Shown piece after piece: positions 3,001 through 25,874 of a stretch of 64,000 nt of DNA (within the stretch, counting starts at the first letter, position 1; each line of letters opens with the position of its first letter). The translations under genes and the position numbers were made by a program. Location of the stretch: the NCBI RefSeq assembly GCF_037996765.1, contig NZ_JBBNAD010000004.1:868001-932000 (forward strand), read 5' to 3'. The notes under the pieces were generated by a model. It had not been told where the DNA came from. It saw only the letters and a program-made list of their open reading frames with translations, and searched no databases. Source of the DNA: Bdellovibrio sp. GT3. Its GTDB lineage: Bacteria > Bdellovibrionota > Bdellovibrionia > Bdellovibrionales > Bdellovibrionaceae.

Positions 3001-4724
3001 CTCCAGAGGCCCTGAAACGAAGAGGCCTCAGCGGATACACGGGTATCGGTCATGATCCTTGCGCTGCTTTGCAAGCCAGCTACTTTGTCCGGGATCAGGA
3101 GGAAATTGAGATTGTATTCCTGTTGGGACAGGCGCCCACCAAGGTCGCGGCCCAAAGTTTATCTGAAAAATATTTGCAGATGGATGCCGTGGAAGATGCT
3201 TTTCAGGAAGTTCACAAAATGTGGGATCACCATTTGGGGTCGATTCAGGTCTCGACACCAGAGCCTGCTTTGAATTTGATGGTGAATCGCTGGTCGCTTT
3301 ATCAATCTTTGGTCTGTCGGTTGTGGGCCCGTTCGGCTTTCTATCAATCGGGCGGAGCCTATGGCTTCCGCGATCAGCTGCAGGATTGTATGGCCTTTGT
3401 TTATTCCACCCCCGAGATCGCAAGAGAGCACATTCTAAGAGCCGCTTCCCGGCAGTTTCCGGAAGGGGATGTTCAGCACTGGTGGCATCCACCGACAGGG
3501 CGAGGTGTGCGCACTCATTTTTCGGATGATCTGTTGTGGCTGCCTTTTGTGGTGACTCACTATATTCGGGTCACCGGAGATCGCAGCATTCTGGATCAGG
3601 AAGTTTCATTCATTGAGGCTCCTTTGCTTACACCAGAACAAGAGGACTCCTATACTCAACCCAAAATTAGTGAGGAGAAGGCGACGTTACATAATCATTG
3701 TCTGCGAACGTTGGAGCATTCCATAAAAGTGGGTGCCCATGGCTTACCTTTGATCGGTTGCGGGGATTGGAATGATGGAATGAACCGCATCGGAGAAAAA
3801 GGAAAAGGCGAAAGTGTGTGGATGGGGTGGTTCCTTCATAAAGTCATGCATGACTATCTGCCGTACTGTGATGCTGAAACAACCCAGCGCTATGAGGAGC
3901 ACATGCAGCGATTGCGTGAAGCCATCGAAGCCAATGCGTGGGATGGGGAGTGGTATCGTCGCGCGTACTTTGATGACGGGACTCCACTGGGAACTTCTCA
4001 AGGTCAGGAGTGTCGCATTGATTCACTGTCGCAAACCTGGTCCATTCTTTCAGGGGTGGGGCAGCCAGAGCGACAACGGCTTGCCATGAGCAAGGTTGAA
4101 GAAAATCTGATTGTTAGGGATAAAGGCTTGATCAAACTTTTGATTCCGGCATTTGATAAAACGAATTTGGATCCGGGATATATCAAGGGATACGTTCCGG
4201 GAGTTCGTGAAAATGGTGGACAGTACACTCATGCGGCAATCTGGGTCGTGATGGCCTATGCAAAGCTGCAGGAGCGGGAGAAAGTACTGGAGCTGTACAA
4301 CATCATCAATCCGATACATCACGCTCGCACGCGGGCTGGAATGCAAAAATATAAAATTGAACCTTATGTGATTGCAGCTGACGTCTATGCGGTGGAGCCG
4401 CACGTGGGGCGTGGTGGTTGGAGTTGGTATACGGGTTCCGCAAGCTGGTTTTACCGTGCGGGGTTGGAATCTGTACTGGGCTTTAATATCGTGGATGGTG
4501 AAATAGTGATTGCTCCCTGTGTTCCGGAATCCTGGAGCAGCTTTGATATCACCTACAAATTTAAAAGCACAACCTATGTCATCAAGGTGCAAATCTCAAA
4601 GAAAGGGCCGCTCCCAGAAAAAAGAATTCCGTTGGAGGACAGCGGGGGACGCAAGGAGATTATTCTGGAGTATCGGGATGACCAGGCATCCCCGGTGAAA
4701 CGACTTAGCGATTCTCACCCTTAA
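3..4724 (+). CDS. ndvB: cyclic beta-1,2-glucan synthase-like protein, C-terminal part (5' end outside window)
   Basis: The reading frame is open to the left edge, so about 1,570 residues are only the C-terminal part of a protein that in NdvB/ChvB relatives is roughly 2,800 residues; the membrane GT84 glucosyltransferase half would lie upstream. Visible in order: a glycoamylase-like region (VPWGISEAGYNARDL near residue 120, YMAHHQGMSL near 215), beta-sandwich modules of the GH94/GT36 type, and a C-terminal GH94 phosphorylase domain with the catalytic-loop motif GCGDWNDGMNRIG near residue 1250. In NdvB this half controls ring size by phosphorolysis. The product is probably an inner-membrane enzyme making a periplasmic glucan. 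Family membership is strong; the exact glucan is inferred. The 3' end overlaps a small convergent gene by 20 bp. Confidence 0.88.
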   Translation, partial: ETYFTEMDFGFLIEKDREVFSIGFNVSENRHDNSYYDLLASECRLASFVAIAKRDVPAKHWFRLGRQLVPVEGKRALVSWSASMFEYLMPHLVMKSYDNTLIGETLYAVVERQISYGKKLNVPWGISEAGYNARDLNYNYQYGPFGIPGLGLKRGLGHDLVVSPYSSFLAALVEPVIATRNLRNMQTPDILTEYGFIEAIDYTPERIAPEQPYALVKSYMAHHQGMSLIAIDNILNAEIMQNRFHAEPRVRAAQMLLQERVPEYMALTEPKAAEIEWESAGDSLMKSFVRVYDESPHHSPRVQILSNGEYSLMLSTGGSGFSKFGKLAVTRWREDATRDNWGQYIYVRDVEMNQAWSTTFLPQLRKPESYKAVFSEDQVEFFRKDLDIKTVTRVIVAPEDNLELREVTLTNMSGEEKVLELTSYLEPVLATLAADHAHPGFSNLFLQTNYLEQKRCLIVKRRPRSSAQSEIYGFHGVVTDAEFVGEIEYETDRSRFIGRGRDASNPIALRAGSTLSNSIGSVLDPILSLRVKLRVPPGGIRKVTFKTGFAAMYDELLQLVDRYQDVHSFDRESKLAWTKSRIDLRHLGMDAESAYSFQRLAERLYFSDPSMRQPAHFLAQYTREQASLWPFGISGDVPIVAVMIGDKKDMGLVRKLLRGHEYLRLKGLAFDLVIMNESKSTYLQDLQDEVQWQIRYAGLQDWMNKQGGIFSLKLDTLQEGDRSLIQAMARVVISSDAGTFKEQVSRKVLPIKYAEAFAPKAQPHSYDHKKFTPTNLQYFNGLGGFSEDGREYIISLQEDQWPPAPWINVVANSNDFGFQVSESGSGFTWAVNSRENRITPWSNDSVSDPNTEIIYIRDDDSGEIWTPTPLPIRNREQYLVRHGQGYSVFEHSAFGLSHELTMFVPPSDTVKITRLKIKNVSGRNRRLSFWAYVEWVLGNLREKSAPYILCEADDDKTLYATNAYNHEFAERVSFFRTSAEVQTFSCDRKEFLGRNKSYSSPEALKRRGLSGYTGIGHDPCAALQASYFVRDQEEIEIVFLLGQAPTKVAAQSLSEKYLQMDAVEDAFQEVHKMWDHHLGSIQVSTPEPALNLMVNRWSLYQSLVCRLWARSAFYQSGGAYGFRDQLQDCMAFVYSTPEIAREHILRAASRQFPEGDVQHWWHPPTGRGVRTHFSDDLLWLPFVVTHYIRVTGDRSILDQEVSFIEAPLLTPEQEDSYTQPKISEEKATLHNHCLRTLEHSIKVGAHGLPLIGCGDWNDGMNRIGEKGKGESVWMGWFLHKVMHDYLPYCDAETTQRYEEHMQRLREAIEANAWDGEWYRRAYFDDGTPLGTSQGQECRIDSLSQTWSILSGVGQPERQRLAMSKVEENLIVRDKGLIKLLIPAFDKTNLDPGYIKGYVPGVRENGGQYTHAAIWVVMAYAKLQEREKVLELYNIINPIHHARTRAGMQKYKIEPYVIAADVYAVEPHVGRGGWSWYTGSASWFYRAGLESVLGFNIVDGEIVIAPCVPESWSSFDITYKFKSTTYVIKVQISKKGPLPEKRIPLEDSGGRKEIILEYRDDQASPVKRLSDSHP

Positions 4725-4890
4725 TCCGGGTGGGGGTCTTGGTAGTAATGACTTCGCGCTTGTAGTGATTGATCAGCAGTGTGAAGTTTTGCGTGAAAGA
4801 CAGGGAGTTCAGGGATTCGTAAAGGTTGTCCTTGGGAGTGGTTTCAACATTTGGTTGGCTTTTACTTTCAGGTTTCGGGGACTCCTTCAT
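4705..4890 (-). CDS. small hypothetical protein, 61 aa
   Basis: A 61-residue frame starts with ATG behind an excellent ribosome binding site (AAGGAGG, 6 nt before the start), which is the main reason to believe it. The product is hydrophilic: an acidic/polar N-terminus (MKESPKPESKSQPN), a short LYESLNSLSFTQNFTLLI segment, and a basic tail. No signal peptide, membrane segment or known domain is visible. Its last 20 bp overlap the end of the convergent glucan synthase gene. It lies downstream of the malic enzyme gene on the same strand but is separated from it by a terminator, so it probably has its own promoter. Function unknown. Confidence 0.55.
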   Translation of the reverse strand: MKESPKPESKSQPNVETTPKDNLYESLNSLSFTQNFTLLINHYKREVITTKTPTRIKGENR

Positions 4891-4935
4891 TCGTACCTCC
4901 TTGGTGGTTAGTATGAAAATTGTAAATGAAGAATG

Positions 4936-4968
4936 AAAAAAAAGGCCTGTGTTTTACCACAGGCCTTT
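4936..4968 (-). terminator. intrinsic terminator of the malic enzyme gene
   Basis: An 11-bp perfect stem (AAAGGCCTGTG with CACAGGCCTTT, 6-nt loop) is followed on the minus strand by a run of eight T. It lies 30 bp past the malic enzyme stop codon. Confidence 0.9.
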
Positions 4969-4997
4969 GTGTTCGGAATGTTAAAATCTGAACGAAC

Positions 4998-7358
4998 TTA
5001 TTGCTTATTGGCTTCGCGGGATTTCAAAACATCTTTGATGAATTGAGCTTCCAGCGCAGTGAATACCACGGAGTTCACGATGCCATCCACCGTTGTTGTT
5101 CTTTGCAGAACGTTGCAAGATCTGCGAACGCCGGTAAGGAAAGGTCCAATCACTTCCACTTTGCCGACCTGCTGGATAAGTTTGTAAGCGATGTTGGAAG
5201 CTTCCAAGTTAGGGAAGATCAGAACATTCGCGCCACCCTTAAGATCAGAGAATGGGAATAGTCTTTCCATGATTTCCGGATTTACAGCTGTGTCAGCTTG
5301 CATATCGCCATCCACCATCAGGCCTGGGCGCAGCTTTTTAACGATTTCTGCTGCATTCTTCATTTTGCAAGGAGTGCCTTCAGCTCCGCTGAAGTTCGAA
5401 TACGAAAGCATTGCGATCTTAGGCTCAATACCAAAATACTCGACAACTTTCGCGGCTTGCAGGGCAATTTGCGCGCACTGCTCAGCTGTTGGATTCAAAT
5501 TCACGGTGGTGTCTGCCAAAACCAGGAATTTGTCTTCAAGAAGGATGAAGTTCAAGCCCGCAGGAACGCCACCTTGGTAGACGCCCACAGTTTGCAGAAT
5601 AGGCTTCACCGCATCGGCATAGTTCACGGAAGCACCGTTCACCACACCATCAGCTTCACCCATCATCACCATCATCGCGGCAAAGTAATTCGGATCAGCC
5701 ATCAAGCGCTCGGCTTCGCGCATGTTGATGCCTTTACGCTGTCTTAAATTGTAAAGCTTCTCAACGTACTTAAAGAACTTCGGATAAGTTGCCGGATGAA
5801 TAACCGGGACGTCATGCAATGCCGGAATATCCAAGGCCTGAATTTTTTCTTTTACGCGGTCAGGGTAACCCAACAGGATCGGCTGACAGATTTTTTCTTC
5901 AACCAAAGTCGCAAGTGCCTTAAGCACTTTGGAGCTAGTTCCTTCCGGGAAAACGATACGTGGTAATTCGCCACCCATTGCCGTCGCATTCTGATGAACT
6001 CTGTTGATGGCAGAGCGAATGAATACTTTGGATGGGCCTTGCAAAGCCTCCAAAGTTTCACGGTAGTGATCCCAGTCTTCAATATTGCGAGTGGCAACGC
6101 CGGTTTTGATGGCGGCTTTCGCCACTTCCGGTGCGACCCACAAAAGAACACGAGTGTCGAATGGTTTCGGAATCAGGTACTCACGACCGAATTTGAATGT
6201 TTTGCCACCGTAAGTTGCAGAAACACGGTCAGGAACATCTTCACGCGCCAGTTTTGCCAAAGCATGAACTGCCGCAAGTTTCATTTCTTCGTTGATTTGT
6301 GTTGAACGAGTATCCAATGCTCCACGGAAGATGGACGGGAAGCCCAATACATTGTTCACTTGATTCGGATAATCAGAACGACCTGTCGCGATGATCGCAT
6401 CCGGGCGAGCCGTACGTGCTTCGTCAGGTGTGATTTCCGGAACCGGGTTGGCCATTGCGAAAATAATTGGATCCTTGGCCATGTCCTTCAGCATTTCCGG
6501 AGTCAGGGCGCCGGCCACAGAAAGACCTACGAATACATCCGCACCACGCAAAGCTTCGCTCAGCGTGCGCACTTCAGTGTCGGCGGCAAAGTATTCTTTG
6601 TATTTGTTCATACCGGCTGTACGGCCTTTGTAGATCACACCCTGAGAATCACACATGATGATGTTTTCACGGCGTGCACCCAGGGAGATGAAGATTTTTG
6701 CGCAGGAGTTTGCAGAGGCGCCGGCGCCGTTCACCACGATGCGCACGTTTTCCATTTTTCTGTTGGTGATGGAGACAGCATTTAACAACGCCGCTCCGGA
6801 AACGATCGCGGTTCCATGTTGGTCGTCATGGAATACCGGAATTTTCATTTCTTTTTTCAGGCGCTCTTCGATTTCAAAACATTCTGGTGCTTTGATGTCT
6901 TCCAGGTTGATGCCGCCAAAAGTGGGCTCCAAAGTTTTGATGGCGTTACAGAAAGTGTCGACATCGTTCGCGTCAACTTCGATATCGAAAACATCGATGC
7001 CGGCGAATTGTTTGAATAGAATTCCTTTACCTTCCATCACGGGTTTTGAAGCGTGCGGGCCAATGTTGCCCAAACCCAATACAGCTGTGCCGTTGGAGAT
7101 AACGCCAACCAGATTTCCTTTGGCTGTGTAGTCGTAAACTTTGGAAGGATCTTTTGCGATCACTTTACAAGGAGCCGCGACACCTGGAGAGTAGGCAAGA
7201 GAAAGATCTTTTTCAGACACGCAGGGCTTGGATGAGATAACCTCAATTTTTCCTGGCTTACCCATGCTATGATAAATCAAAGCCTCTTGGTCGAAGTTGT
7301 TTGTGGTGCCTTTAGTCTCAGGTGCTTTATCAGAGTTCTTATTCAAATTCTTTTCCAA
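4998..7358 (-). CDS. maeB: NADP-type malic enzyme with C-terminal phosphotransacetylase-like domain
   Basis: Decarboxylates malate to pyruvate, normally with NADP+, linking the TCA cycle to pyruvate and reducing power. The N-terminal half carries the malic enzyme signatures (LAYSPGVAAPC, FHDDQHGTAIV, NGAGASANSCAKI, FAMANPVPEI). The C-terminal ~330 residues are a phosphate acetyl/butyryltransferase-like domain (PRIVFPEG onward), as in E. coli MaeB (759 aa), where it is regulatory rather than a working transacetylase. No ATG precedes the conserved region. I chose the TTG at 7358 because AAAGGA lies 7 nt upstream; a longer frame from a TTG at 7412 has no ribosome binding site. Single-gene unit with its own terminator. 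Confidence 0.93.
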   Translation of the reverse strand: MEKNLNKNSDKAPETKGTTNNFDQEALIYHSMGKPGKIEVISSKPCVSEKDLSLAYSPGVAAPCKVIAKDPSKVYDYTAKGNLVGVISNGTAVLGLGNIGPHASKPVMEGKGILFKQFAGIDVFDIEVDANDVDTFCNAIKTLEPTFGGINLEDIKAPECFEIEERLKKEMKIPVFHDDQHGTAIVSGAALLNAVSITNRKMENVRIVVNGAGASANSCAKIFISLGARRENIIMCDSQGVIYKGRTAGMNKYKEYFAADTEVRTLSEALRGADVFVGLSVAGALTPEMLKDMAKDPIIFAMANPVPEITPDEARTARPDAIIATGRSDYPNQVNNVLGFPSIFRGALDTRSTQINEEMKLAAVHALAKLAREDVPDRVSATYGGKTFKFGREYLIPKPFDTRVLLWVAPEVAKAAIKTGVATRNIEDWDHYRETLEALQGPSKVFIRSAINRVHQNATAMGGELPRIVFPEGTSSKVLKALATLVEEKICQPILLGYPDRVKEKIQALDIPALHDVPVIHPATYPKFFKYVEKLYNLRQRKGINMREAERLMADPNYFAAMMVMMGEADGVVNGASVNYADAVKPILQTVGVYQGGVPAGLNFILLEDKFLVLADTTVNLNPTAEQCAQIALQAAKVVEYFGIEPKIAMLSYSNFSGAEGTPCKMKNAAEIVKKLRPGLMVDGDMQADTAVNPEIMERLFPFSDLKGGANVLIFPNLEASNIAYKLIQQVGKVEVIGPFLTGVRRSCNVLQRTTTVDGIVNSVVFTALEAQFIKDVLKSREANKQ

Positions 7359-16510: not shown

Positions 16511-19246
16511 ATGTCAGTTTTTAAGAGTGTATTTGCCTTCGGCGCGGTGCTTACAACTGTTCTTGTAACAGGCTGTACAAACGGCTTTGATGTGGGTCCT
16601 ATCATTGCGAAAAAGCAGGCACCCGAGCTTATCGTCGACTCTTTTGCTCTTCCAAAAACTCAGTCCACGGAAATTGCGGCTCGCTGCGAAAATGCCACGT
16701 GCCTGACAATCAATAAATCGTCCTTGGGAAGAATCTTTTTGCTGATCGCTTCCGGTAAAACCGGTGGTTCCACGCCGCAGTGGTATGATTTGAAACCGCA
16801 AGTGGTGAGTTTTGAAAAATACGGCAGCCGCATGGCTTTGTTGGGGCAAAACTACAACAGCATCTACGAAGAGCTGCAAACAGAAAACCTAATTCAGACT
16901 TTCGCCATCATTGGTGAGGACGAAAGCACGATCACTTTTGACTGGGGTCGTGGTCTTAAATCCCTGATTGCGCAAAATGCCTATGACGTGGATTTCGGCG
17001 AGGGAATGAATGACCCGTTGACGGAAAGCTCTGTGTCCGCCATTCCTGTGAAGGATTCCTTCACGCGTAATATCGCAATCACCAACAACGCCATTGAACT
17101 TGAGCAGGTTTCCAAAGTTCAAAGTCTGGTGGGCCAAGCGGCTGCTGGCAATAAACTTGCGGTCGAGACCCGCGAAGAGACTCTGGCGGTAAATATCCAG
17201 ATTCGTGCTTATCGTCTTGAATCCAAGTTTCAATCCAAAGAATTCGATAAATCCCGCTCTGTGGGTTTCTTCGTGACTCGCCTGGCGCGTCCTTCCATGA
17301 GTAAGGATGCGATTAAGTACATCGCGAAATGGGATGTCTCTGAGGGGCGTGAGCCGATCACTGTGCGTATTTCTGCAGCGGTGCCCGCTGATTATGTGAA
17401 CGCCGTTAAGGACGGCGCTCTGTACTGGAATAAAGTTTTCGGTAAAGACGTTATCCAGGTGGAGACAGGTGTGGACCCGCAATCAGCTCCCAAAGATCGT
17501 ACGATCATGGTTCGCTGGGTAACTTGGTTGGATGCCGGTGCTGCCTATGCGATCAGCCAGACAGATCCATTGACGGGTGAAATTTTGCGCGCGCAAGTGT
17601 TCATGCCTTCCGTATTCACGAAAGTGGGTTCCGGGGAGTTGGTTCAGTTGAATGGCGGTTCTCCAGTGGCAGCAGGTGCGGTGGCTTGTGACTTCTCTCA
17701 AAAGATTCAATCTTTGCAAAAACTGACTCGTGAGGCTCCGGACTCGCAACGTTTGCGTCTGGCTCAGGACAGTGTTCGCGCCACGGTTGCCCATGAATTG
17801 GGCCACGCGCTGGGGCTTCGTCATAATTTCGCAGGCTCATTCTCTGCGAAAGCGACGACTCAGGAAATCTATGACTCCTCCAAATCCTATCTGAAAGATC
17901 CAAATCATCCGGGCTTGGAGACTTCCACAAGTATCATGGACTACGTGAGTGGCGTGGATGATGTTTTGAACTCTGCGTTTATCAAGCACTCGGCATTGTC
18001 TTACGATAAGATGGCGATGGCTTGGGCTTACTCCTCTGATGACAGTGCTTTGGATCCTAAGATCTCTTTGTACTGCACAGACGAAGACATCAGTCTTGCG
18101 AATGTTCAAAAAATGTCGATCTATGGTTGCGAGCGTTTCGATAACGGCAATAATCCATTGCTGAGAAAATATTTGGACGGTCGTGATGAAAAAGAAAACC
18201 TGGTTAACGTTCTATTTGCATCGATCATGGGTCGTATGTACCCAGGGGATCAACCGGAAGTCGTGAATGATCTCGACACTGTGATCGGTGATACATTCAA
18301 ATGGGGCAAAGCTGCGATCGACTTGTCATTCGTAGGCAAGGTTCTGTTTGAAACGTCTGAGATGGCTGGTAACAACTCTCTTCGTGCTCAGAACCTGGTT
18401 TCTTTGGATGCAGCAAAAAGCGGTGGAATTCTGAATGCTCGTAAAGGGCAGGATCCAGCGTTTGATGCATTGAGATTGGCGCATCTGGCGGAAACAGCCA
18501 AGTTCCTTAAAACGAAAGACAATGTAACTTCAGAGTTTGGTGGGTATGCGGCCATGTTGAATGGTTTGCTACGTAATTCCAAGGGCGAAATGGACCTGGA
18601 TTGGTTTATCAAAGAAGTTGAGGCTTTGGCCCAAAGTGGTGTCCTTGCCAAGGGCAAAACGCTTTCCGGTCGTGAATATGAATTAACGGCAGAACAGCAA
18701 AAGAAAATTGTTAAGTTCTTCGTGATGATTGAAGCGCTTAATAAAAAGGTCATCTTTGAGGCGGCTCATGACATTCTTCCGGTTATCAAAGCTCAAGTGG
18801 AGACTGATAAAGGTGTGAAGGTCATCAGCAACATTCTGCCATCGGAAGTGGTTAAGCAAGCCGATACAGATGTCCTGGGTGACTTGGCTTTGGATATGGT
18901 CCTGGCTACGCAAAAACCATTGGATGTTAAAGTGGGTGAGCAGGGGGATAAGACGGTCACGGTTGGCGTGCCTTTCCTGACGTCTGCTGAGCGTATTGCG
19001 ATGATGAATATCCTGTCTTCTCAGGGCATGTCCTTCCCATTGGAAGTGAAGCGCGCGCACGTGCGTGGTTCCCTTGCGGAAACAATCAACAAACTTCTAC
19101 ATGTTGTTGATCCGTTGTTGTTCATTGATTCCCTGAACCGCGAAGAGCAAGTGGCTTTGGCAGATAAACTGCTTAAAGAAGGGAAAATCGATTCCAAGGC
19201 CTCTGGTTGGATTGCAGCTCAAGTGAAGGTCCTTCAGGCGCTATAA
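16511..19246 (+). CDS. large zinc metalloprotease lipoprotein (HExxHxxGxxH, DUF5117/DUF4953-like)
   Basis: 911 residues. An N-terminal lipoprotein signal ends in the lipobox VTGC (Cys22), so the protein should be anchored in a membrane on the periplasmic side or exposed outside. The N-terminal region (SLGRIFLLIASG, YDLKPQVVSFEKYG) resembles DUF5117, and the middle carries a metzincin-type zinc site, HELGHALGLRHNF at residues 428-440 (H428, H432, H438, base E429), as in DUF4953 zinc-dependent metalloproteases. The SIMDYVSG sequence supplies the methionine expected of a metzincin Met-turn. Substrate unknown; digestion of prey or external protein is inference. Strong GGAGGGG ribosome binding site. 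Followed by two tandem terminators. Confidence 0.88.
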   Translation: MSVFKSVFAFGAVLTTVLVTGCTNGFDVGPIIAKKQAPELIVDSFALPKTQSTEIAARCENATCLTINKSSLGRIFLLIASGKTGGSTPQWYDLKPQVVSFEKYGSRMALLGQNYNSIYEELQTENLIQTFAIIGEDESTITFDWGRGLKSLIAQNAYDVDFGEGMNDPLTESSVSAIPVKDSFTRNIAITNNAIELEQVSKVQSLVGQAAAGNKLAVETREETLAVNIQIRAYRLESKFQSKEFDKSRSVGFFVTRLARPSMSKDAIKYIAKWDVSEGREPITVRISAAVPADYVNAVKDGALYWNKVFGKDVIQVETGVDPQSAPKDRTIMVRWVTWLDAGAAYAISQTDPLTGEILRAQVFMPSVFTKVGSGELVQLNGGSPVAAGAVACDFSQKIQSLQKLTREAPDSQRLRLAQDSVRATVAHELGHALGLRHNFAGSFSAKATTQEIYDSSKSYLKDPNHPGLETSTSIMDYVSGVDDVLNSAFIKHSALSYDKMAMAWAYSSDDSALDPKISLYCTDEDISLANVQKMSIYGCERFDNGNNPLLRKYLDGRDEKENLVNVLFASIMGRMYPGDQPEVVNDLDTVIGDTFKWGKAAIDLSFVGKVLFETSEMAGNNSLRAQNLVSLDAAKSGGILNARKGQDPAFDALRLAHLAETAKFLKTKDNVTSEFGGYAAMLNGLLRNSKGEMDLDWFIKEVEALAQSGVLAKGKTLSGREYELTAEQQKKIVKFFVMIEALNKKVIFEAAHDILPVIKAQVETDKGVKVISNILPSEVVKQADTDVLGDLALDMVLATQKPLDVKVGEQGDKTVTVGVPFLTSAERIAMMNILSSQGMSFPLEVKRAHVRGSLAETINKLLHVVDPLLFIDSLNREEQVALADKLLKEGKIDSKASGWIAAQVKVLQAL

Positions 19247-22092: not shown

Positions 22093-22518
22093 CTAAAGCA
22101 GTTTTTTAAGTTCCTCGCAAGTCAGTCGTCCCACTTTTTGAATATCTTTGATTTTTGTAGTGGGTGTGCTTGTGTATGCCTTTGCTGCGCTCGGATCTTT
22201 TAGGATAAACAGCGGCAGTCTTTTAGGGAGCGTGCGGGCCATGGTTTTGGTTTGTGCCGGCGTGCTAAGAGAAACAAGTTGGATGTTCTTTTTGATATCA
22301 TCCTCACATCTATTAATGTCGAACACATAGATCCGGCAGGGCGCGCAGTCTTTTTCGATATAGATCAGAGTTTTTCCCTGGGCCAATAAGTCTTCGGATT
22401 TCAATTGGGTTCCATCTGAAAAATCCACCAAAGTCTCAGCAAAAGCGGGCCAACCCATGAGATTCATAAGTAAAACCAAAAAAATATTCATGCTTCGTAG
22501 GCGCAGCTTTTGGGGCAT
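22093..22518 (-). CDS. periplasmic CxxC protein, possibly thioredoxin-like
   Basis: About 141 residues. I chose the ATG at 22518 because it gives a complete signal peptide (basic KLRLR, hydrophobic NIFLVLLMNLMGWPAFA); an ATG at 22491 would lose the positive region, and a TTG at 22563 would run through the palindrome. No strong ribosome binding site is visible for any of these. The mature protein has a redox-type motif IEKDCAPCRIYVF near residue 60 followed by another cysteine (INRC), a strand-helix layout, and LPLFILKDPSA (a cis-proline position is possible), all compatible with a small thioredoxin fold. It is divergent from the His-rich/TonB genes and shares their control region. Confidence 0.65.
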   Translation of the reverse strand: MPQKLRLRSMNIFLVLLMNLMGWPAFAETLVDFSDGTQLKSEDLLAQGKTLIYIEKDCAPCRIYVFDINRCEDDIKKNIQLVSLSTPAQTKTMARTLPKRLPLFILKDPSAAKAYTSTPTTKIKDIQKVGRLTCEELKKLL

Positions 22519-22545
22519 AAGGATTTTTAGGACAAAACCTTTGCA

Positions 22546-22564
22546 ATTGCAAGTAACTTGCAAT
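22546..22564. promoter_or_regulatory. 19-bp palindromic operator between divergent metal-cluster genes
   Basis: ATTGCAAGTAACTTGCAAT is a perfect palindrome (9-bp arms, one central base), preceded by another TTGCAA so that the hexamer occurs three times in 23 bp. It lies between the divergent CxxC gene and the His-rich protein gene, 26 bp from the latter's start. Length and symmetry fit a Fur-family (Fur or Zur) operator; this is inferred from form and neighbours, not from a matched consensus. Confidence 0.55.
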
Positions 22565-22589
22565 AAAAGTCAGTTCATTGGGAGGTTTT

Positions 22590-23045
22590 ATGTTTAAAAT
22601 CGCATTAGGCTCAGCAGTTTTGGTGTTTTCGCTTTTGGCAAATACAGCGATTGCTCACGGTGATGATCACGATCACGGTGGATTCCCAGAAGGAACTCTT
22701 CTTGCTCTTGAGGGTGTGGATGCCATCTCCAAATCAGAATGCATGCTCTTCGTTACTGACGTTGGTTATACAGGTCCTGAGCAAACCCCAGATCAGTGGT
22801 ACGCGGTTATTTCAACTAGCTACAGCCACGGTCACGCAGCTCCAACTCCAATCACTGTTAAGATCCATCCTGAAAAAGCAGGTGTGCTGTACGGTACGGC
22901 GGCAAACGGCCAAGATCAAATCGCCGTGTTTTTGAATCCCCAGGAAATTGACCTTAGAAACATCAACTCTTTCAATTTGAAATGGCTTCATGGCGATCAT
23001 TTTCACACAAATCGCTGTGTAAACATGCAGGTTCACGCACACTAA
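22590..23045 (+). CDS. secreted histidine-rich protein, probable metal binding
   Basis: 151 residues from the ATG at 22590, which has GGGAGG just upstream. A signal peptide (MFKIALGSAVLVFSLLANTAIA) is followed immediately by a histidine/aspartate cluster HGDDHDHGG. More His sits in SYSHGHAAP and in the C-terminal WLHGDHFHTNRC...HAH. Two cysteines (SECMLF, NRCVN) may form a disulfide. The pattern suggests a periplasmic metal-binding protein (zinc or copper are the obvious candidates). It is 10 bp upstream of a TonB-dependent receptor gene and so in one operon with it, behind the palindrome at 22546. No named family recognised. Confidence 0.75.
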   Translation: MFKIALGSAVLVFSLLANTAIAHGDDHDHGGFPEGTLLALEGVDAISKSECMLFVTDVGYTGPEQTPDQWYAVISTSYSHGHAAPTPITVKIHPEKAGVLYGTAANGQDQIAVFLNPQEIDLRNINSFNLKWLHGDHFHTNRCVNMQVHAH

Positions 23046-23055
23046 TCAGGATTCC

Positions 23056-25224
23056 ATGAGTTATTCGATTCTTTTAAAGCGCCAAGTGTTTTTTTCGACT
23101 CTGGCGCTTTTATTTACGACATCAAGTTTTGCTCAAAGTACGTCAGCGGGCGAGTCAGTCACTCAGCTGCCTGAAGTTATTATCACCGACAAGTCTGAAA
23201 ATGACCTTAGAATCAAAAAAGACGAAATCAATCGTGTCGAAACTTTAAAAGCCAGTGATATTCGAAAAAAGCAGGCGCAAACCTTTGCGCAAGCAGTGGC
23301 AAACGTTCGCGGCATCGATATGCAAACAGCCTGTGCGTTTTGCGGAGCGAAGCGCGTAACCATCAATGGTATGAAGGGTGAGCACACCACGATCCTGATC
23401 GATGGTCTGCCTTTGCATTCTACAGTTTCCGGCTTTTATGGCGTCGAAGCTATTCCATTGGGTGGAGTGGATTCCATTGATATTTATCGTGGCACCGGGG
23501 CGGCTTTGACCGCGCCAGAGTCCATTGGTGGTGCCATTAATGTTGTGACCAAAGAGATCGTCACAAACAGTGCCGAAGGTGCGGTTTCTTTAGCCAATGA
23601 CGGGCAAAAGAATATTTCAGTTTTGGGCACAAGAAAGCTCACCGAAAAAACGGGTCTGTTGCTGGGTGTGCAATATGGCGAAATCAAGCCCATTGATATT
23701 GATGATAACGGCGTTTCAGAACTGCCAAGTCAGAAAACCTTCACAGCCCTCACGAAACTTTCCCACAAAATAAACGAAACCGATGAAGTGAGCCTCCGTC
23801 TTAGTTACGGAAAGCTTAAGACCATCGGAGGTTCGATGAATGATCTGGAACTAAGTGCGCCGCCGACAACACTTGCGAACTCAGACGATTTTGTGGATCG
23901 TGATGTTCGTAAAAAATATATCGGTGCGGAAAATAAAATCACAGAGAATGTATTTCTGGATCGTTACGAAATCGCTTCTGTTTATCGCAAACAGATCGAT
24001 CAGGACTCCAGTCTGAAAGTCAGTCTGGGTGGGGCTCACCAGACCTCCCATGCAATTTACTCCCACGGCTATGACTATGACAACGATGACAAATTATGGG
24101 TCGGGATGGTTGAGTATCAAAAGCTTGCATCCGACAGTCATCTGCTGACGTTTGGGGTGGATTCCAAAAATCAGTTCATGGATTCGTTTTCACAGACTTT
24201 ATATGTGGACCGTGTTCCATCGTTGACTCAAGATGATTTGAACTACCACTCCTTTGGTGGTTTTGCCCAGGACACCTGGTTCATAGATGAAGCCAATGAA
24301 TTGTCGATGGTTTTGCGTCTGGATAACGTAAAAACCCATTGGGTGGATTTTGATAAGAAAATTGATAAAACAGTCTTCGCACCTCGTGCGATGTATAAGC
24401 ATGTGCATGACTCTGTTTTGACGTCCCGTTTGTCGGCAGGAGTCGGGTATCGCTCGCCATTGACACTTTTTGAAAGTCAGCACGGAATGTATCACGATGG
24501 TTTTGTGATCGACGTTGATGATTTGGAAATTGCCCAAAGCTTTGTCTATTCTCTCTCAGGACAACGGCTTGATGATTTCTTTGAATTCAGCACTCACGTA
24601 ACCCGCATTGAAAACATGGCCTATGGGTTGGATCGTGCGGATCAGGAGCTTCCGACATTGTTTATCAGCTCCAAGGAGCCGTACACGGTTTCGGTCGTGG
24701 ATTTCAGTTATGGTCGTCGTATCACGCATGATTGGACTGTCGAAGGTTTGGTTGAGTCTTTCCATTATCCGGCAGGATATAAGGAAAAACTGCAAGTGGC
24801 AGCTGTGGAGCAGCGCTTGTCAGTGATGTCCAACGTGACTTGGGGCAAATGGACGGCTTCTCAGCGCGTAACTGTTGTGGGCGAGAGAGATCTTTCGGCT
24901 TATGGTTACGGAGATCACTATAACGTTGCTTATACTGACACCGATCCGTTGAGCCCCACATTCGGTCAGACCTTTACTTCCGATCAAAAGTTTCAAAAGT
25001 CACCGACCTTCTTTACAGTGGATCTGAATTTCGAGCGGCAACTGAGTGAAAACCTGTATGCAGGTTTCGCGATCTTAAATGCCTTCGATTATACCCAAAC
25101 GGGCGCCGGCGACAGTCCAACGACATGGCACGTGCACGGAGATCACTATCACCTGGACAACTTTCATATCTGGGGCCCGCTGCGCGGACGCCAGTTCTTG
25201 TTGTCTCTTCGCGGAAATCTCTAA
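23056..25224 (+). CDS. TonB-dependent outer-membrane receptor, candidate metal importer
   Basis: 722 residues: signal peptide ending near SSFAQS, TonB-box-like LPEVIITDKS, plug domain to about residue 170 (RVTINGMKGEHTTILIDGLPL, GSIDIYRG-type strand, ESIGGAINVVTKE), then a 22-strand barrel ending in the expected C-terminal strand. An unusual CxxC (C93-A-F-C96) sits in the plug just before the RVTINGM strand, and the C-terminal region is His-rich (HVHGDHYHLDNFHIW). With the upstream His-rich secreted protein, this points to uptake of a metal ion or metal complex rather than a classic siderophore, but the substrate is inferred. The energy would come from TonB-ExbBD encoded elsewhere. Confidence 0.88.
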   Translation: MSYSILLKRQVFFSTLALLFTTSSFAQSTSAGESVTQLPEVIITDKSENDLRIKKDEINRVETLKASDIRKKQAQTFAQAVANVRGIDMQTACAFCGAKRVTINGMKGEHTTILIDGLPLHSTVSGFYGVEAIPLGGVDSIDIYRGTGAALTAPESIGGAINVVTKEIVTNSAEGAVSLANDGQKNISVLGTRKLTEKTGLLLGVQYGEIKPIDIDDNGVSELPSQKTFTALTKLSHKINETDEVSLRLSYGKLKTIGGSMNDLELSAPPTTLANSDDFVDRDVRKKYIGAENKITENVFLDRYEIASVYRKQIDQDSSLKVSLGGAHQTSHAIYSHGYDYDNDDKLWVGMVEYQKLASDSHLLTFGVDSKNQFMDSFSQTLYVDRVPSLTQDDLNYHSFGGFAQDTWFIDEANELSMVLRLDNVKTHWVDFDKKIDKTVFAPRAMYKHVHDSVLTSRLSAGVGYRSPLTLFESQHGMYHDGFVIDVDDLEIAQSFVYSLSGQRLDDFFEFSTHVTRIENMAYGLDRADQELPTLFISSKEPYTVSVVDFSYGRRITHDWTVEGLVESFHYPAGYKEKLQVAAVEQRLSVMSNVTWGKWTASQRVTVVGERDLSAYGYGDHYNVAYTDTDPLSPTFGQTFTSDQKFQKSPTFFTVDLNFERQLSENLYAGFAILNAFDYTQTGAGDSPTTWHVHGDHYHLDNFHIWGPLRGRQFLLSLRGNL

Positions 25225-25313: not shown

Positions 25314-25874
25314 CCGAAAGAAGTTCCGAAATTACTGCAGCTCCAGCTTTGACTCCTGAAGCATCTTCATTCTGGGAAATTTGATATTGGATTTATGGAA
25401 GGGGTCGCTTCTCATCCCGAATTAGACAGTCATGATGTTCTGAAGGAAAATCTGGGCGTGTTGCTGCCAGTTGATCATCCGTTGGCAAAACGTAAAGAGG
25501 TCTCGTTGCGCGATTTGAAAGATGAAACCATCATTCTGCACAGTCGTAAAGAGGCCGAGGAGTTTCACGACCGCATAGTGCATCTGATGAAGGGTTTGAA
25601 TAAGAAAGCTAAAATATATATTAAGAACGATGAGGAGAGTTGTCCTATTCTCGTAGCTATGGGGAAAGGTGTTTCCCTGACGATAGCTGGAAGTGGCAAC
25701 TTCGTACCTGAGCACACTCGCTTTGTTCCTATCAAGGATATGTTTTTGCCGGTCAGGGTCTTTTGGCGTCGAGCTGACGAAGATTCAGCATTGAAGACTT
25801 TTATTAGTTTTATTCTTGAAAGTAAGTCGGTTCTCTCGAGGAGTACTCATTGTCTGTACTTGGTAAATGAATAA
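25314..25874 (+). pseudogene. decayed LysR-family regulator, effector-domain fragment
   Basis: The intact frame from 25395 (about 160 residues) reads like the second half of a LysR effector domain: LGVLLPVDHPLAKRKEVSLR, then DETIILHSRKEAEEFHD, then VAMGKGVSLTIAGSG, then PVRVFWRRADED. Upstream in the same frame the reading continues with typical LysR sequence (LLKHLHSGKFDIGF) but is broken by TGA at 25350-25352; before that PKEVPKLLQLQL still looks LysR-like. The winged-helix DNA-binding domain and first third are missing. The start at 25395 has no ribosome binding site. So this is a remnant, probably not making a working regulator. A functional truncated protein cannot be excluded. Confidence 0.75.

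Follow-up and report, generated by a model that had tools for sequence, protein, structure and literature searches.

A probable Fur/Zur-type-controlled zinc-acquisition module with a CxxC-plug TonB-dependent receptor in Bdellovibrio sp. GT3

Outer-membrane receptors for ionic metals that carry cysteines in the plug are barely known, with one copper structure and one manganese-linked family from 2026. In the copper receptor OprC, the metal is held by Cys143 and Met147 of the plug and His323 and Met325 of the barrel, and the cysteine is needed for Cu(II) (PMC8610252). In Stenotrophomonas maltophilia, a receptor with a CQNC motif is paired with a CAPC protein (pTFP) under the control of MntR, and a reductase role has been proposed for pTFP (PMC13217887). 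Zinc is handled differently by ZnuD of Neisseria, which clamps the ion between the plug apex and extracellular loop 6 (PMC4557270). The locus described here adds a broad, probably zinc-linked branch in the Bdellovibrionota, a new family of small beta-barrel partners, and a well-defined regulator box; consequently, the ideas of a plug reductase and a co-receptor become directly testable.

The locus lies in a stretch of 64,000 nucleotides (the window) from the 3.58-Mb genome of Bdellovibrio sp. GT3 (G000). Three genes surround one intergenic region (22093–25224) and form two divergent units, P0001 on the minus strand and P0002 with P0003 on the plus strand, the latter two separated by 10 bp and one palindrome being common to both units. 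An initial annotation had proposed a metal-acquisition system made of a CxxC periplasmic protein, a secreted His-rich protein, and a TonB receptor with a plug CxxC and a His-rich C-terminus, arranged around a single control region, and each of these parts was recovered in our analysis. The G+C content of the module is unremarkable, and a sigma-70 promoter scan gave no match above threshold. Because the flanking genes are near each other without the module in the three closest species (with a gap of 92 bp in G019), gain or loss of the module has been patchy. Directly 3' of the receptor, a plus-strand frame at 25395–25874 resembles LysR-type regulators in their C-terminal half; it has no DNA-binding part and appears to be a relic left where insertions vary.

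P0003 (23056–25224, plus strand; 722 amino acids) belongs to the TonB-dependent receptors, with both plug domain and beta-barrel present according to Pfam (Plug, PF07715, E 6.9e-17), an AlphaFold2 model built on a 43-sequence alignment (pLDDT 89, pTM 0.86), and Foldseek, which placed BtuB and OprC best, with FecA and others at similar scores. The only cysteines of P0003 are those of the plug motif CAFC (residues 93–96; 23332–23343), the plug CxxC of the initial annotation. Relatives carry CANC, CSNC, CVNC, CATC, CSIC, or CSMC at this place, and the CxxC is invariant across all 43 aligned receptors, together with H476, H704, and W706. The cysteine pair is missing from the solved receptors aligned with P0003. 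The C-terminus is His-rich (TWHVHGDHYHLDNFHIWGP), and the His-rich last loop, WHVHGDHYHLDNFHIW, occupies residues 691–706 (25126–25173, plus strand), ahead of the final strand. A plasmid tblastn search returned distant receptors only. P0003 shares with the CQNC receptor a single CxxC in the plug, but the motif is CAFC here and CxNC in some relatives, not CQNC. The combination of a plug thiol and a barrel histidine as a putative ionic metal site recalls OprC and NosA, which are among the nearest folds; those receptors differ in having a CxxxM-HxM site, a methionine track, and copper as substrate (PMC8610252). ZnuD is similar in TonB dependence, in the Zur-type control and ionic receptor logic proposed for P0003, and in loops rich in metal ligands (His/Asp-rich and extracellular in ZnuD), but it has no thioredoxin-fold or His-rich partner, and the text of the ZnuD paper mentions no cysteine (PMC4557270). 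No ZnuD chain was found among the PDB profile matches to P0003 at E<=1e-10 or among the 50 best folds.

On the other side of the intergenic region, P0001 (22093–22518, minus strand) has a signal-like N-terminus and a CAPC motif at residues 58–61, with codons at about 22336–22347. The TTG start given in the open reading frame list, at 22563, falls within the palindrome; the candidate ATG starts are 22518 and 22491, of which the shape of the signal peptide favors the second. In an alignment with 14 relatives, C58, C61, and P119 (in a cis-Pro-type TP motif) are invariant, and C71 and C134 are nearly so. Since Pfam scores stay below the thioredoxin thresholds despite the CxxC and TP motifs, we treat the thioredoxin fold as predicted. 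A secreted CAPC protein beside the receptor gene, its fold here being suggested by the motif and weak Pfam matches, and a metal-regulator box at the promoter are further features in common with the CQNC/pTFP module (PMC13217887), and by motifs and gene arrangement the receptor/thioredoxin core would belong with that kind. The box and the neighboring regulators are of Fur-family or Zur-like type here, however, and not MntR beside mntR/mntH; the relatives have a TonB gene of their own, the phylum is different, and a His-rich beta-barrel partner and a His-rich last loop are present. The initial annotation had called the combination of a His-rich soluble partner with a redox-type CxxC protein unfamiliar. 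That view has to be divided: a thioredoxin-fold protein alongside a receptor with a plug CxxC is not new, as a locus of this type under manganese regulation has been published (PMC13217887), while the small beta-barrel His-rich partner, the Fur-type box, and the dedicated TonB are.

The partner, P0002 (22590–23045, plus strand), has 151 amino acids, a signal peptide ending in AIA, and 11 histidines, which cluster in two places, the start of the mature chain (HGDDHDHGG) and the C-terminal end (KWLHGDHFHTNRC..HAH). Its family has two invariant cysteines (51 and 143) and a terminal KWxHxxHxHxxxC motif. AlphaFold2 modeled P0002 as a small eight-stranded barrel (pLDDT 88), and it has no Pfam or NCBIfam family and no PDB relative by sequence or fold searches. 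A lipocalin/avidin label was considered and dropped because TM-scores were no higher than 0.3–0.4, and a copper histidine brace was likewise rejected, as relatives do not conserve the histidine that begins the mature protein. At least 6 of 28 P0002-type partner proteins carry a lipobox, and going by the model these small beta-barrel proteins appear to form a new family, putatively lipid-anchored in several relatives. Lipoprotein co-receptors of the TbpB/HpuB type are beta-barrel partners encoded directly beside the gene for a TonB receptor. P0002 has the same arrangement, and some of its relatives have the lipobox; unlike those co-receptors, P0002 itself lacks a lipobox and has no significant fold match. 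ZepA (PMC10957091) is also secreted and is linked to zinc and Zur, as P0002 would be, and its motif H-x(2-9)-H-[FY]-H is seen in P0002 as HGDHFH, but ZepA is larger, with two domains and a PEP-CTERM C-terminus that P0002 lacks, and no homology between the two was detected with NCBIfam. In another genome of the genus (G005, L045 8653–9102), a P0002-like gene has lost the His motif and has no receptor adjoining it.

Within the order, homologues of P0002 were found in 6 of 141 genomes and homologues of the receptor in 17 of 141. A first P0002 scan of genome contigs gave no match; a scan of 84,980 genomes yielded 67 loci. Synteny of the module is conserved over the Bdellovibrionota, and in G064, G037, G032, and other genomes the receptor has as its neighbors the His-rich gene, the CxxC protein, a TonB C-terminal protein (PF03544), and a Fur-family gene. 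In a tree of 43 receptors, most from metagenome-assembled loci and partly dependent on one another, 26 with the His loop are separate from 17 loopless ones, for which no His-rich gene was detected. Nearly all of the 26 adjoin a His-rich gene, so that loop and partner co-segregate on the receptor tree. Remote partners in the loopless clade may be missed, since genes at these loci were called with a simple script and classified by phmmer against seeds from the His-loop clade. The 17 loopless receptors come from Campylobacterota, Thiomicrorhabdus, Rhodocyclaceae, and others (L080, L106–L148; e.g., L109, L120, L136, and L141) and have plug motifs of the CSIC/CSMC type. At some of these loci the neighbors include TonB/ExbB/ExbD, a TlpA-like protein, or a Fur-family gene, as well as a small upstream protein bearing His/Cys.

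The shared palindrome of the initial annotation proved to be a perfect 9-1-9 repeat, ATTGCAAGTAACTTGCAAT, at 22546–22564, with the core TTGCAA-N5-TTGCAA, and the predicted operator between the divergent starts reads TTGCAA-T-TGCAA-GTAAC-TTGCAA-T (22541–22564, no strand assigned). The exact TTGCAAGTNACTTGCAA has a single copy within the window, at the palindrome. Genome-wide, one other exact TTGCAA-N5-TTGCAA exists in GT3 and is intragenic; near-exact copies sit within genes or rRNA and were rejected as further sites. The box was not found upstream of the ZnuA gene or the two Fur genes of GT3. In the 141 genomes, the long arrangement TTGCAA-n-TGCAA-n5-TTGCA has 5 matches, 4 of them at the module locus, compared with 0 for the reversed control pattern, and its presence there is more than chance. 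In the His-loop clade (26 upstream regions), TTGCAA-N5-TTGCAA was found in 13 regions with <=1 mismatch (0.13 expected from shuffles) and in 17 with <=2 mismatches (1.2 expected), as against 0 of 27 upstream regions of a sister receptor clade with <=2 mismatches. Among the rest of the 26, L082 was measured from the wrong start and does bear the box. The sequence TGCAACNNNGTTGCA is unique to the module locus genome-wide in G064, G032, and G037, as TTGCAA-N5-TTGCAA is in G120; in G112, a second perfect box lies 5' of a MerC-domain gene. In G064, the box precedes the receptor unit, a Trx-Zur-COG0523 unit, and, as ATGCAACACTGTTGCGT, a second COG0523 gene. By sequence, the geometry seen here is that of the Fur family; for Zur, palindromic boxes of the 7-1-7 and 9-1-9 forms are described (PMC6103462).

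The genes next to the box in relatives point to zinc. The locus-linked Fur-family regulator of G064 best matches the Zur structures 2o03 (M. tuberculosis) and 7dh7 (Zur-type), and also 4mtd (E. coli). COG0523 GTPases are found within the G064 and L084 loci, and FolE2 with an ArsR-type gene within L084; COG0523 thus adjoins the module at two loci only, and FolE2 at one. Both COG0523 and folE2 are counted among the standard members of the Zur regulon (PMC6103462). In GT3 itself, neither the Zur gene nor the TonB gene that accompanies the module in relatives is present, and there are two Fur-family proteins only. One Fur gene follows folE2 and has a Fur-box-like sequence upstream. At L046 in this genome, folE2 (4308–5219) stands directly before the general Fur gene (5300–5800), and the interval contains a TGATAATGATTGTCA-type sequence. 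The other paralogue, C6:27913–28359, is core in the genus. As GT3 has no Zur gene linked to the module, we propose this paralogue as the repressor; it is probably the reader of the box, since G071 and G119 have its counterpart at the module. The second Fur protein of GT3 is, by sequence, closest to PerR/Fur. Two PF02492 matches in GT3 were considered as COG0523 proteins; one is weak and falls in a frame of 1092 residues, the other is short and partial, and neither is a clear COG0523 protein. These features of GT3, and the small number of loci with COG0523 or FolE2, weigh against the zinc reading.

With these data, the metal-acquisition reading of the initial annotation gains support from synteny, the Zur-like Fur-family neighbor, COG0523/FolE2, the Fur-type box, and the co-occurrence of loop and partner. 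We interpret the locus as a Fur/Zur-type-controlled outer-membrane module for zinc, in which the CAPC protein would keep the plug cysteines reduced (probability about 0.6). Zinc is favored because of the Zur-like regulator of G064, the COG0523/FolE2 neighbors, and the box before a COG0523 gene, and the estimate goes no higher because the published system closest to this one is regulated by manganese (PMC13217887). That system, the only published case found in which a CAPC thioredoxin-fold protein accompanies a CxxC-plug receptor, is controlled by MntR and induced by manganese plus iron limitation (PMC13217887), which would fit the same machinery importing manganese, or manganese plus iron. GT3 has one ZnuA-family ABC system, which includes two permeases and lacks a long His-rich loop. 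We take this arrangement to be that of Mn/Fe-type systems, and it would suit manganese as well. Yet the locus regulators are of the Fur family, with Zur as the best structural matches, COG0523 and FolE2 suggest zinc, and His-rich partners would be unusual for Mn2+, so we consider a manganese module quite unlikely.

Copper, nickel, or cobalt must also be weighed. Because the form of the box equals the consensus of the Streptomyces nickel regulator Nur, tTGCaa-N5-ttGCAA (PMC3919588), DNA alone cannot name zinc. In addition, OprC is among the Foldseek neighbors, sites of Cys plus His and a histidine at the N-terminus after the signal peptide would fit copper, a MerC domain is encoded in two relatives, and a SCO1-type gene lies farther off in G064. 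However, P0003 scored 19.8 bits with the TonB-dependent copper receptor model TIGR01778, for which the cut-off is 472, the mature N-terminal histidine of P0002 varies, and the Zur-type regulator and zinc-regulon neighbors argue against all three metals, any of which is an unlikely substrate. An organic ligand, metallophore, or haem, with the His-rich protein as an incidental neighbor, is very unlikely. The receptor fold is admittedly generic (BtuB, FecA, and OprC have similar TM-scores), NCBIfam matches to haem and siderophore receptors exist but are weak, and H476 is near what we take to be the position of the FRAP/NPNL histidine of haem receptors. No synthase genes were found near the locus, though, and the partner and His loop co-segregate; ZnuD, too, was initially misassigned to haem (PMC4557270).

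If zinc is the substrate, the module could work as follows. When zinc is scarce, a repressor of the Fur family, which is Zur-like in relatives, would leave the box at 22546–22564, allowing both units to be expressed. The small P0002 barrel and the His loop of the receptor would capture Zn2+ on the outer membrane or close to it, and the ion would then be held within the receptor by the plug CxxC and barrel histidines, for which the invariant H476 is a candidate. This proposed site is modeled on the way OprC holds copper between Cys/Met of the plug and His/Met of the barrel, and by analogy a zinc site intermediate between the OprC and ZnuD types is plausible. TonB would move the plug and release the ion into the periplasm, where the CAPC thioredoxin-like protein may keep the plug cysteines reduced, or free the ion from them; a reductase role is proposed, as it was for pTFP (PMC13217887), because a plug disulfide would block metal binding. 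The inner-membrane step could be served by a general ABC importer, such as the one ZnuA-family system of GT3; a MerC-type membrane protein may take this role in some relatives. A more elaborate version, in which the plug cysteines form a redox gate maintained by a periplasmic reductase and the P0002-type protein hands zinc to the His loop as TbpB serves TbpA, is a tentative possibility that we consider doubtful.

Small membrane proteins with a MerC domain, box-linked or 3' of the receptor, are encoded at L177 (site 1501, gene 1582–1968) and L076 (8323–8748), and these are candidates for the inner-membrane step. Elsewhere in the window, at 16511–19246 on the plus strand, a large lipoprotein-like protein carries the motif HExxHxxGxxH of the zinc metalloprotease type.
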